From contig NC_017278.1 in NCBI RefSeq assembly GCF_000236585.1, positions 806,001-870,000 on the forward strand: DNA of 64,000 bases, written 5' to 3'. The stretch comes from Thermus sp. CCB_US3_UF1. GTDB taxonomy: Bacteria > Deinococcota > Deinococci > Deinococcales > Thermaceae. Shown in pieces: positions 26,842 through 33,152 of the stretch (the stretch's first letter is position 1; each line of letters begins with the position of its first letter). Position numbers and translations under genes: made by a program. Under the pieces are notes generated by a model that saw only the letters and a program-made list of their open reading frames with translations, did not search any database and was not told the DNA's origin.

Positions 26842-26845
<4 letters not shown>
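26456..26845 (+). CDS. Small class I cytochrome c
   Basis: 129 aa. The signal peptide is residues 1-~21 (MKRLFLPFLTLAWGSFPAWG), the haem site CAQCH is near residue 34, and the distal Met ligand is probably in GLMPGF. This is a soluble periplasmic mono-haem electron carrier of the type found with terminal oxidases or as a redox shuttle. It stands alone between potD and the convergent ilvD. Its stop and the ilvD stop share the four bases CTAG. Confidence 0.9.
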
Positions 26846-28505
<1,660 letters not shown>

Positions 28506-28509
<4 letters not shown>

Positions 28510-29240
28510 GCCTCCCTCCAGGTGGCGATTTTGCCGTGGAACTGACGGGCCCGGGGCAGAAGGCGCACCAGGGCCTTGGCCGCCGCCTCCGGGGTGAGGA
28601 GGCGGCCTTCCTCCTTGTAGCCGCGGAAGACCCGGTGCAGCACAGGGGCGGCGCTCCCCTGGGCCTCCCGGGCCGCCTGCTGCATGCCGGTTTCCACCAC
28701 CCCCGGGCGGTAAATAAAACAGGCCACCTCGGGCACCTCCGCGGCCAGCTGCCGGGCCAGGTGCTCCTCGGCGGCCTTGGCCACCGCGTAGGCCCCGATG
28801 CCGGGGAGGTTGCTCTCCGCCGCCCCCGAGCCCACGAAGACCGCCACCCCCTCCCCCCTCTGCCGCAGGAGAGGGTAGGCGAAGCGGGCAAGCTGGTACC
28901 CCGCCAGGAGGTTGGCCTCCAGCACCTCCAGGAAGAGGGGCTCGGCCAGCTCGTAGAGGAGGGGGCCGGGGTGGAGGACCCCGGCGTTGTGGATGAAGCC
29001 CTCCAGGGGGCCCAGGGCTTGGGCCCGCTCCACCAGGGCCTGGGCCACCTCGGCCTTGCCGGCGCTACCCGCCACGGCCTCGGCCTTGGCCCCTAGGGCC
29101 CGCACCTCCTCCAGCACGGCCCGCAGGGGGGCTTCCGAGCGGGCGTTCAGCACCAGGTCGTAGCCTGCCTTGGCCAGTTCCAGGGCCAAGGCCTTGCCGA
29201 TGCCCCGGCTGGCCCCGGTGAGGATCAGGGTTTTCCTCAT
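28506..29240 (-). CDS. Short-chain dehydrogenase/reductase
   Basis: 244 aa. The nucleotide-binding motif GASRGIG (residues ~9-15), NAG (~86-88), and the catalytic S-Y-K set (GSGAAESNLPGIGAYAVAKAA) are all present. Arg/Asn at the end of the second strand (LVLNARS) suggest NADP(H). The C-terminal GKIATWREA type ending resembles sepiapterin-reductase-like or YueD-like members. The substrate is unknown. It sits between Uma2 and ilvD with 4-nt overlaps on both sides. Confidence 0.88.
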
Positions 29241-29770
29241 AGCAAGGCCTCCACCGCCGCCTTCTGCCCCAGGGCCTCGAGGGCCTCCCCGGGGCCCAGG
29301 ACCGCCACCTGCCCGTAACCTTCCCCTTGGGGCTCCCGGTGGACCAGGACCCTCTGCCCCCCTAGGTCCACCACCCAGACCTCCGCCACCCCGGCCCGGG
29401 CGTAGAGGGGGAGCTTCACCCCCAGGTCGTGGTCCAAGGGGGTGTCCGCCACCTCCACCACCAGGAGGGCATCCCGGGCCCGGGGTAGCTCGGCCTCGTA
29501 AAAGTCCTCCCGGGGCCTGAGGAGGGCCAGATCCGGGTAGAGTTCCGACCCCCCCACCGCCAAGGGGCTTTGCACAAAGAGGATGGCCTTTTCCGGCACC
29601 AAGGGGGCAAAGAGGGCGGTGAGCCGGGCCACCTTGGCCGCATGGCGCTTGCCGATGGGGCTCATCTCCAAGAGTTCTCCTTCCACCAGCTCCAGCCTCA
29701 GGTCCTCGGGGAAGACCCCGGCCTCCACCATGCGGTGGAACTCCTCCAGGGAGATCCGGTGCCGGGTCAC
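29237..29770 (-). CDS. Uma2 family protein (PD-(D/E)XK nuclease-like, DUF820)
   Basis: 177 aa. Uma2 features include ISLEEFHRMVEAG, LELVEGELLEMSPIGKRHA, YPDLALLRPREDF, a VVEVADTPLDHDLGVKLPLYARAGVAEVWVV-type core with the D/E...K positions, and a final PGEAL. The family has a restriction-endonuclease-like fold and no established role. GTG 29770 is preferred over an upstream ATG at 29812 because AAGGAGGTG lies 6 nt before it. Its presence inside a branched-chain amino acid operon is odd and probably incidental. Confidence 0.85.
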   Translation of the reverse strand: MTRHRISLEEFHRMVEAGVFPEDLRLELVEGELLEMSPIGKRHAAKVARLTALFAPLVPEKAILFVQSPLAVGGSELYPDLALLRPREDFYEAELPRARDALLVVEVADTPLDHDLGVKLPLYARAGVAEVWVVDLGGQRVLVHREPQGEGYGQVAVLGPGEALEALGQKAAVEALL

Positions 29771-29776
29771 GGGAGC

Positions 29777-29785
29777 ACCTCCTTC
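29777..29785 (-). promoter_or_regulatory. Ribosome binding site that fixes the Uma2 start
   Basis: AAGGAGGTG, nearly complementary to the 16S rRNA 3' end, ends 6 nt before GTG 29770. It rules against the upstream ATG at 29812 that would lengthen the protein by 14 residues. Confidence 0.75.
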
Positions 29786-29808
29786 CGCCGGGGTTGCCGG
29801 CATCCCCC

Positions 29809-31448
<1,640 letters not shown>

Positions 31449-31458
31449 GGCTCACCTC

Positions 31459-32874
31459 CTAGCGCACCGCAATGCCAAAGACCTCGCGGGCGTCGGCGAT
31501 CTCGCCCGCCACCGCCGCCGCCGCCACCATGAGGGGGCTCATGAGCACCGTGCGCCCCCGGGGGCTTCCCATCCGCCCCTTGTAGTTGCGGTTGGAGGAG
31601 CTGGCGGCCAGCTCATCCCCCTCCAGCCGGTCGGGGTTCATGGCCAGGCACATGGAACACCCGGGGTTCCGCCACTCAAACCCCGCCTCGCGGAAAACCT
31701 CGGCGATGCCCTCCTCCTCGGCCTTCCTGGCCACCCACTCCGAGCCCGGCACCACCAGGGCCCGCACCCCCTTCTTCACCCGGTGCCCCTTCAGGAAGCG
31801 GGCCACCTCCCGCAGGTCGGAAAGGCGGGCGTTGGTGCAGCTGCCGATGAAGGCCACCTGGACGGGTACCCCCTTGATGGGCTGCCCCGGCCTGAAGCCC
31901 ATGTAGGCCAGGGCTTCCTCGGCCACGGGGCGTTCCTCCTCGGGAAGCTCCTCCAGCAAGGGGATCCGCCCGTCAATGGGGATGGCCTGCCCGGGGTTGA
32001 TGCCCCAGGTCACCGTGGGGGCGATGGCCTCGGCCCGGAAGGTGACCACGTCGTCGTAAGGGGCATCGGGGTCGGAGCGGAAGGAAAGCCAGCGCCGCTT
32101 GGCCTCCTCCCAGGCCTCCCCTTGGGGGCTGTAGGGACGGCCCTCCAGGTAGCGGAAGGTGGTCTCGTCGGGGTTCACGTACCCCACCCGGGCCCCGCCC
32201 TCAATGGACATGTTGCACAGGGTCATGCGGCTTTCCATGTCCATGGCCTCCACGGCGCTGCCCCCATACTCGTAGGCGTAGCCCAGGCCCCCCTTCACCC
32301 CCAGGTGGCGGATGATGTGCAGGATCACGTCCTTGGCGTAGACCCCGGGGGCCAGCCGGCCCTCCACGTTGATGCGCCGCACCTTCAGCTTCTGCGCCGC
32401 CAGGGTCTGGGTGGCCAGCACGTCCCGCACCTGGCTGGTGCCGATGCCGAAGGCCACAGCCCCAAAGGCCCCGTGGGTGGAGGTGTGGGAGTCGCCGCAG
32501 GCGATGGTCATCCCCGGCTGGGTGAGGCCCAGCTGGGGCCCGATCACGTGCACGATCCCCTGGTTCCCGCTCCCCAGGTCAAAGAAGGTGATGCCGTGCT
32601 CCCGGGTGTTGGCCCTAAGGGCTTCCAGCATGCTCTGGGCCAAGGGGTCCTGGAAGGGCTCCCTGCGGTCGTGGGTGGGGACGATGTGGTCCACGGTGGC
32701 GAAGGTGCGGTGGGGGTAGCGCACCTTAAGCCCCAAGTCCTTCAGCATGCCGAAGGCCTGGGGGCTCGTCACCTCGTGCAGGAGGTGCAGGTCAATGAAA
32801 AGCTGGCTCTGCCCGTTCCGCAGCTTGCGCACCTCATGGGCTTCCCATACCTTCTCGTAAAGCGTCTTCCCCAT
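31459..32874 (-). CDS. leuC: 3-isopropylmalate dehydratase large subunit
   Basis: 471 aa aconitase-family subunit. Motifs: [22 protein letters not shown] (region, key [12 protein letters not shown]), cluster cysteines in [12 protein letters not shown] and [11 protein letters not shown], and [11 protein letters not shown]. It holds a [4Fe-4S] cluster. It is the first structural gene of the leu operon. Its ATG lies 14 nt after the attenuator U-run, with GGGAGGGAG as ribosome site. Confidence 0.97.
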
Positions 32875-32887
32875 GCTCCCTCCCTAG

Positions 32888-32918
32888 AAAAAACCCCCCG
32901 GACCTTTGGGCCCGGGGG
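32888..32918 (-). terminator. leu attenuator: rho-independent terminator before leuC
   Basis: A 10-bp stem (CCCCCGGGCC with its partner, one G-T pair) around a 4-nt loop is followed by G and six T on the minus strand, ending 13 nt before leuC. The 5' arm (CCGGGCCC, 32908-32915) is also complementary over 8 nt to GGGCCCGG in the leader (32942-32949), which gives an alternative antiterminator. Confidence 0.85.
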
Positions 32919-32936
32919 AAAGCGGTAAGGGCTTTC

Positions 32937-32984
32937 CTAAGCCGGGCCCGCCCGGCCTAGGTCTAGCAGGATGCCCCGCCGCAT
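32937..32984 (-). CDS. leuL: leu leader peptide (15 aa, Leu codons in tandem)
   Basis: The frame MRRGILLDLGRAGPA ends at TAG. Three Leu codons fall within four positions (CTG CTA GAC CTA), preceded by Ile. CTA is rare in such GC-rich genes, as expected for a control peptide. A -10 box ends 8 nt before the ATG, so the peptide is read from a nearly leaderless end. Its 3' half forms a hairpin (GCCGGG/CCCGGC, 32941-32956) that competes with the antiterminator. A ribosome paused at the Leu codons would cover the first arm and favour readthrough. Confidence 0.8.
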   Translation of the reverse strand: MRRGILLDLGRAGPA

Positions 32985-32992
32985 TGCCCCCT

Positions 32993-33021
32993 AGCCTAAG
33001 GCCAAAGGGCCCGTGGGTCAA
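32993..33021 (-). promoter_or_regulatory. Promoter of the leu operon
   Basis: TTGACC (33021-33016), 17-bp spacer, TAGGCT (32998-32993). The expected transcription start is within 1-2 nt of the leader peptide ATG at 32984. Confidence 0.75.
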
Positions 33022-33028
33022 GCTTGAC
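33017..33028. promoter_or_regulatory. Perfect palindrome formed by two back-to-back -35 boxes
   Basis: GTCAAGCTTGAC, 12 bp, is built from the leu -35 on one strand and the tRNA-Leu -35 on the other, 2 bp apart. Two polymerases cannot both occupy it, so leu operon and tRNA-Leu initiation probably compete. It could also be a protein-binding site. Confidence 0.65.
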
Positions 33029-33052
33029 GAAAAGGGAGAGGCCCTCTACAAT
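33024..33052 (+). promoter_or_regulatory. Promoter of tRNA-Leu
   Basis: TTGACG (33024-33029), 17-bp spacer, TACAAT (33047-33052), 13 nt before the tRNA 5' end. Near consensus, as expected for a stable RNA gene. Confidence 0.85.
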
Positions 33053-33065
33053 GACCCTTGCGTCT

Positions 33066-33152
33066 GCCGGGGTGGCGGAATTGGTAGACGCGCACGATTC
33101 AGGGTCGTGTGTCCTCACGGACGTGCGGGTTCAAGTCCCGCCCCCGGCACCA
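33066..33152 (+). tRNA. tRNA-Leu (anticodon CAG)
   Basis: 87 nt including encoded CCA. Acceptor GCCGGGG pairs with CCCCGGC. The anticodon arm CACGA/TCGTG closes the 7-nt loop TTCAGGG (anticodon CAG, reads CUG). The long variable arm (tgtcctcacggacg region) marks a class II tRNA, and the T arm carries GGTTCAAGTCC. It reads CTG, the dominant Leu codon in GC-rich Thermus genes and one of the control codons of the adjacent leader peptide. Confidence 0.96.

Follow-up and report, generated by a model that had tools for sequence, protein, structure and literature searches.

A putative leaderless leucine attenuator with conserved CTA codons upstream of leuC in Thermus and related Deinococcota

For the region upstream of leuC in the window (the whole 64-kb stretch of DNA analysed here, from a Thermus genome of 2.26 Mb in two contigs), the best reading, to which we assign a probability of about 0.88, is transcription attenuation mediated by the ribosome, with charged tRNA-Leu as the signal and leuCDB(-Uma2-SDR-ilvD) as the operon that would be controlled. 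The sensed tRNA-Leu is probably the CUA-reading isoacceptor. Both the leader ORF and the intrinsic terminator expected of a ribosome-mediated attenuator of an amino-acid operon were found, and each element named in the original prediction (leader, hairpin, pairing and terminator) is present in the window sequence (Table 1).

The elements lie on the minus strand in the order promoter, leader ORF, 11-bp hairpin, terminator with six Us, and Shine-Dalgarno sequence and ATG of leuC, and the leader region sits between leuC and a divergent tRNA-Leu(CAG) gene (33066-33152, plus strand) with trpS. The leader ORF (ATG CGG CGG GGC ATC CTG CTA GAC CTA GGC CGG GCG GGC CCG GCT TAG) encodes the 15-aa peptide MRRGILLDLGRAGPA, whose Leu codons are CTG, CTA and CTA. 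As had been claimed, these three Leu codons occupy four positions of the ORF at 32984-32937 (minus strand), two of them being CTA. The description of CTA as rare held in that the codon is uncommon, making up 4.1% of Leu codons (22 of 534) across 12 genes of the window, but TTA is rarer; in the distinct Thermus leaders, CTA accounted for 32 of the 41 Leu codons (78%).

The run of genes behind the attenuator, predicted to reach Uma2, SDR and ilvD, was recovered by Pfam as LeuC, LeuD, LeuB, Uma2, SDR and IlvD. leuD starts 10 nt past the end of leuC, and from leuB onward each gene has a 4-nt overlap with the preceding one. Because of these overlaps, Uma2, SDR and ilvD, which are contiguous with leuB, are possibly carried on the same transcript as leuB. 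On the other side of the leader, at 33016-33052, the -35 boxes of the leu promoter and of the divergent tRNA-Leu(CAG)/trpS promoter (TTGACG-17-TACAAT, plus strand) stand back-to-back in the palindrome GTCAAGCTTGAC, an arrangement that would hardly allow two polymerases to bind at the same time. This palindrome was found in exactly the 13 Thermus loci with a tRNA-Leu gene as neighbour.

Table 1. Features of the leu leader region and the genes behind it (window positions)
Feature	Position	Strand	Basis
-35 box TTGACC of leu promoter	33016..33021	-	sequence
-10 box TAGGCT, ending 8 nt before leader ATG	32993..32998	-	sequence
Leader ORF MRRGILLDLGRAGPA plus stop, probably leaderless	32937..32984	-	sequence and conservation
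Putative control codons Leu6 CTG and Leu7 CTA	32964..32969	-	sequence; Leu7 CTA invariant in 27/27 Thermus genomes
Putative control codon Leu9 CTA, within hairpin arm 1, paired with UAG stop	32958..32960	-	sequence, fold
Arm 1 of 1:2 hairpin, CCUAGGCCGGG	32951..32961	-	fold; Thermus alignment
Arm 2 of 1:2 hairpin, CCCGGCUUAGG, includes stop codon	32936..32946	-	fold; alignment
Predicted antiterminator 5' strand GGGCCCGG	32942..32949	-	complementary to 32915-32908
Predicted antiterminator 3' strand CCGGGCCC, part of terminator 5' arm	32908..32915	-	complementarity, fold
Intrinsic terminator: hairpin 32919-32894 and U-tract TTTTTT 32893-32888	32888..32919	-	sequence
leuC, first regulated gene (predicted)	31459..32874	-	Pfam PF00330
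leuD	30843..31448	-	Pfam PF00694
leuB	29809..30846	-	Pfam PF00180
Uma2	29237-29812	-	Pfam
SDR	28506-29240	-	Pfam
ilvD	26842-28509	-	Pfam

The leader ORF is probably leaderless, because 8 nt separate its -10 box from the ATG (TAGGCT at 32998-32993, ATG at 32984), within the spacing of about 6-10 nt taken to mark a leaderless start. This distance was constant at 8 nt among all Thermus loci and ranged from 6 to 10 nt in relatives, and the -35 box TTGACC was kept in 28/28 Thermus leuC upstreams scanned, with a spacing to the -10 box of 17-18 nt (17 nt in the window). A Shine-Dalgarno-led leader was rejected, since the -10 box, with the start site predicted from it, leaves no room for one. In Deinococcus-Thermus, transcription of leaderless mRNA from a TANNNT motif adjoining an ORF has been demonstrated (PMC12340547), and about 40% of the genes in sequenced members are predicted to be leaderless (PMC3160421). 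Like those genes, the leu leader has a TANNNT motif shortly ahead of its start codon and lacks a Shine-Dalgarno sequence (PMC12340547, PMC3160421), but the leaderless genes there are described as protein-coding, and the terms "leader peptide" and "attenuat" are absent from PMC12340547.

The 1:2 hairpin comprises 11 bp (32961-32951 with 32946-32936) and includes Leu9 and the stop codon; a hairpin with 6-bp arms had been proposed here, and these arms are included in the one found, which is longer. The further proposal that the arm 2 region pairs with the terminator 5' arm was borne out, GGGCCCGG being the exact complement of CCGGGCCC. Together they would form an 8-bp antiterminator that is mutually exclusive with the 1:2 hairpin. 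The 110-nt region folded better than its dinucleotide shuffles (z -2.4, 4/200). In the Thermus alignment, 99.6% of the cells of the 1:2 hairpin were paired, and one of its pairs showed seven compensatory G-C/A-U cells; for the 2:3 antiterminator the figure was 93%, lowered in part by sequences whose one extra C shifts the register. Covariation within Thermus is thin, with most pairs invariant and one double change in the 2:3 helix. In other Thermaceae and in a further family (f4), the arm sequences differ but complementarity is kept (GGGGTC:GACCCC, CCCGGGGGGT:GCCCCCCGGG, CTGGGGGTAG:CTGCCCCCAG).

From this observed anatomy and its conservation we infer the start site, the translation of the leader and the response to leucine, as follows. 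Transcription would start at or within a few nt of the leader ATG, so the message would be leaderless, with the ribosome loading at its 5' end. When Leu-tRNA is short, the ribosome would stall at Leu6, Leu7 or Leu9 (CTG CTA x CTA) and cover arm 1, arm 2 would then pair with the terminator 5' arm (GGGCCCGG:CCGGGCCC), and polymerase would read into leuC. When leucine is plentiful, the ribosome would reach the TAG within arm 2, no antiterminator would form, and the terminator would stop transcription.

We assessed this switch by folding, at 65 C, the RNA between the ribosome front edge, set 10 nt beyond the A-site codon, and the loop of the terminator. In this equilibrium calculation on truncated RNA, a stand-in for kinetics only, the terminator 5' arm across the 27 Thermus loci had a mean upstream pairing of 0.92 when the ribosome was stalled at CTA, 0.16 when it stood at the stop codon and 0.58 when the upstream sequence was shuffled; in 23/27 loci the observed value was matched by no more than 3/60 shuffles. 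When the ribosome was left out, folding gave a mixed picture (0.30). Similar values were obtained for family f4 (0.91 stall, 0.18 stop, 0.65 shuffled) and lower ones for other Thermaceae (0.76 stall, 0.06 stop, 0.50 shuffled), where about half of the loci gave no clear gain over shuffled controls. In Trueperaceae, the CTA-stall antiterminator scored 0.52 against 0.52 for shuffles, and a classical antiterminator was dropped there. Folding therefore favours a classical switch in Thermus and f4 and does so less clearly for other Thermaceae, whereas Trueperaceae gave no such support; for Thermus, it predicts an antiterminator that excludes both the terminator and the 1:2 hairpin and becomes available once the ribosome stalls at the control codons.

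The Leu codons and pairing predicted to be conserved in other Thermus genomes were so: the leader ORF with CTA-x-CTA was kept in 27/27, as were the stems, and the 1:2 hairpin showed the compensatory changes given above. M-R-R and R-A-G-P were nearly constant in these leaders and both CTA codons constant, with variable residues around them (GILLDL, AVILVL, SALLRL, RIALTL). One leader (L098) had lost a codon and retained the frame and the L-L-x-L pattern. A scan for a promoter, 5-10 nt and a short leaderless ORF gave five chance hits in 75 leuC upstreams of other phyla, none with CTA (0/75 CTA leaders), and no second such combination besides the leu site on either strand of the 64 kb. A chance ORF was ruled out by the conservation together with these two controls. 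The terminator hairpin with U-tract was present in 26/27 Thermus genomes; the exception, L103 (G014), keeps the leader and has a terminator without U-tract. Another locus, L117 (G049), keeps the leader with no recognisable promoter or U-tract, its promoter region being replaced by sequence like an IS200/IS605 end. Both are possibly decayed attenuators. A further locus, L109 (G019:C4:1354-2758), is a second leuC copy broken by stop codons, with an intact leader copy upstream.

Judged on sequence, the leader design is far wider than Thermus and extends through most of the phylum as sampled. We surveyed 111 available genomes, among which Deinococcaceae proper seemingly have no member, and selected leaders by promoter score rather than by CTA. 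A promoter, 6-10 nt and a short ORF with in-frame CTA preceded leuC in about 84 of the 89 assessable Deinococcota genomes: 27/27 in Thermus, 12/12 in f4, 1/1 in f2, 0/2 in f3, 21/22 in Meiothermus-like genomes (the exception, L196, has CTG) and 22/24 in Trueperaceae-like genomes with enough upstream sequence (family f5 being taken as Trueperaceae, since two of its contigs, L171 and L168, correspond to the named records L055 and L074). Among the Meiothermus-like loci, L194 corresponds to Meiothermus granaticius (L007). G049, with its leader kept and its promoter not recognised, was counted additionally. In most Meiothermus-like leuC upstreams (L118-L136, L194-L196), a palindrome, TTTGGTATACCAAA, fills the -35/-10 spacer. 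Exact sites numbered one per genome (two in one) in 9/10 such genomes tested; no regulon was found for it, and it is absent from Thermus, the window's own genome included. The palindrome is operator-like and suggests a dedicated leu repressor that Thermus lacks.

The Trueperaceae leaders (L055, L074, L146-L174) carry the motif RRRLxx[IV] or a near form, and in 19 distinct leaders RRRL ends exactly 11 codons before the CTA Leu. Across these 19, Arg at -14 is encoded by six different codons and Leu at -11 by five, whereas position 0 is CTA in 19/19. As the -14 and -11 codons vary and position 0 does not, the amino acid appears to be kept upstream and the codon at the end. This hints at an arrest peptide acting together with codon decoding, and we treat it as a lead only. 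One could picture an ancestral leaderless leucine attenuator of Deinococcota built round a fixed CTA, in which peptide, hairpins and operators changed and whose Trueperaceae form became, or always was, an arrest-peptide sensor combining RRRL with CTA decoding; we regard this scenario as tentative and rather doubtful.

A nascent peptide might also be part of the sensor more generally, with the RAGP end in Thermus and RRRL in Trueperaceae arresting the ribosome and leucine or Leu-tRNA perhaps as the signal. RAGP is nearly constant at Thermus leader ends, and we take it to resemble the end of the SecM arrest motif; the 19 Trueperaceae leaders, with Arg -14 and Leu -11 kept through synonymous codons and Leu 0 always as CTA, point the same way. 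However, in Thermus the RAGP codons fall within the arms and loop of the hairpin, and RNA pairing may be what keeps them; the leader ends of other Thermaceae differ (SPARGV, PRAPWA, PPPRG). We consider this explanation quite improbable. Somewhat less remote, though still unlikely, is that CTA is kept for pairing with the UAG stop in the 1:2 hairpin rather than for decoding, the leader still attenuating through its Leu codons generally. Leu9 CUA does pair with UAG in Thermus, which could account in part for its conservation, and a CTA...TAG symmetry around the hairpin recurs in many relatives. Yet Leu7 CTA, which lies outside the 1:2 hairpin in the Thermus fold, is equally invariant, and CTA is kept where the stop is TGA or TAA (L007, L126, L129, L133 and also Trueperaceae leaders).

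The explanation we consider least probable, and very improbable, is a terminator that is plain or controlled by a protein or RNA, with a short ORF that is incidental or only helps translation. The terminator is indeed strong and conserved, and the promoter palindrome of Meiothermus-like genomes suggests an extra protein regulator, but that palindrome does not occur in Thermus, and the frame, stop and CTA codons are conserved across genera whose leaders are otherwise divergent. The exclusion of a chance ORF by the controls also argues against it, as does Rfam: besides tRNA there was no match at gathering score, and up to E = 10 only unrelated families far below their gathering scores appeared. 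The models of the Leu leader (RF00512) and the T-box riboswitch (RF00230) found no match, whether at gathering score or at E values as high as 10, and a known RNA family was rejected for the element on these grounds. Attenuation by a ribosome decoding Leu codons stays the preferred reading.

A targeted search, which sampled operons beyond leu, revealed two further leaders in the same genome: MRSVLALSLALVLIVGPAGGRV followed by a stop codon before ilvB (G000:C2:914525), and MTLAFAPWWPG followed by a stop codon, with TGG TGG, before trpE (G000:C2:461686). The ilvB type, MR..L.LSL.LVLIVGPAGG, rich in CTA, ATC and GTA codons, occurred in 17/17 Thermus genomes sampled (L177-L193). The trpE leaders (L197-L204, L215) contain WW in 8/9 genomes and end, before the stop, in WWPG, once in PWPG and once in WWSG. 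By the -10 spacing criterion, both types are leaderless, and hairpins lie behind them.

Attenuation of this kind is already known from the leu operon of Salmonella and E. coli, in which leuA is the first gene and CUA codons exert the control. The Thermus element shares with leuL of those species (RF00512) clustered Leu codons, rare CUA among them, a set of alternative hairpins and, ahead of the leu genes, a terminator with a U tail. It differs in that the first gene is leuC, the leader, probably leaderless, encodes 15 aa of which 3 are Leu, and RF00512 does not match. The three CUA codons matter for sensitivity in S. typhimurium leu (Carter et al., as discussed in PMC1183508), and selective-charging theory singles out CUA as the leucine codon best suited to control in E. 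coli (PMC1183508). Sinorhizobium meliloti trpL/rnTrpL likewise has a leaderless leader ORF at the transcript 5' end, there encoding a 14-aa peptide, and transcription attenuation (PMC7298713), but it is alphaproteobacterial and senses Trp, and the terminated RNA, rnTrpL, is known to act in trans as well. The Corynebacterium ilvB-II motif and actinobacterial branched-chain leaders resemble the Thermus element in their short uORF (usually 15-17 codons), branched-chain codons, overlapping stems and terminator (PMC10272879, PMC1262725). They precede ilvB rather than leuC, actinobacterial leuA carries a pseudoknotted LEU element instead, and an invariant CTA is not known to be described for them.

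The wider pattern, with its leaderless messages, near-invariant CTA, three operons and Trueperaceae motif, adds to the interest of a known kind of control. We found no account of a Thermus leu attenuator in the open literature; older papers on T. thermophilus leuCDB may have described it. Classical attenuation would be an old and widespread control in a phylum for which the open literature searched holds no such report, and it would act at three operons (leuC, ilvB and trpE) of one thermophile on putatively leaderless messages. A leaderless attenuator requires the ribosome to engage an RNA that begins at the start codon, at a time when polymerase has come close to the terminator. The near-invariance of CTA offers an independent lineage for testing selective-charging theory, and the motif in the Trueperaceae leaders gives a concrete candidate for a novel arrest peptide.
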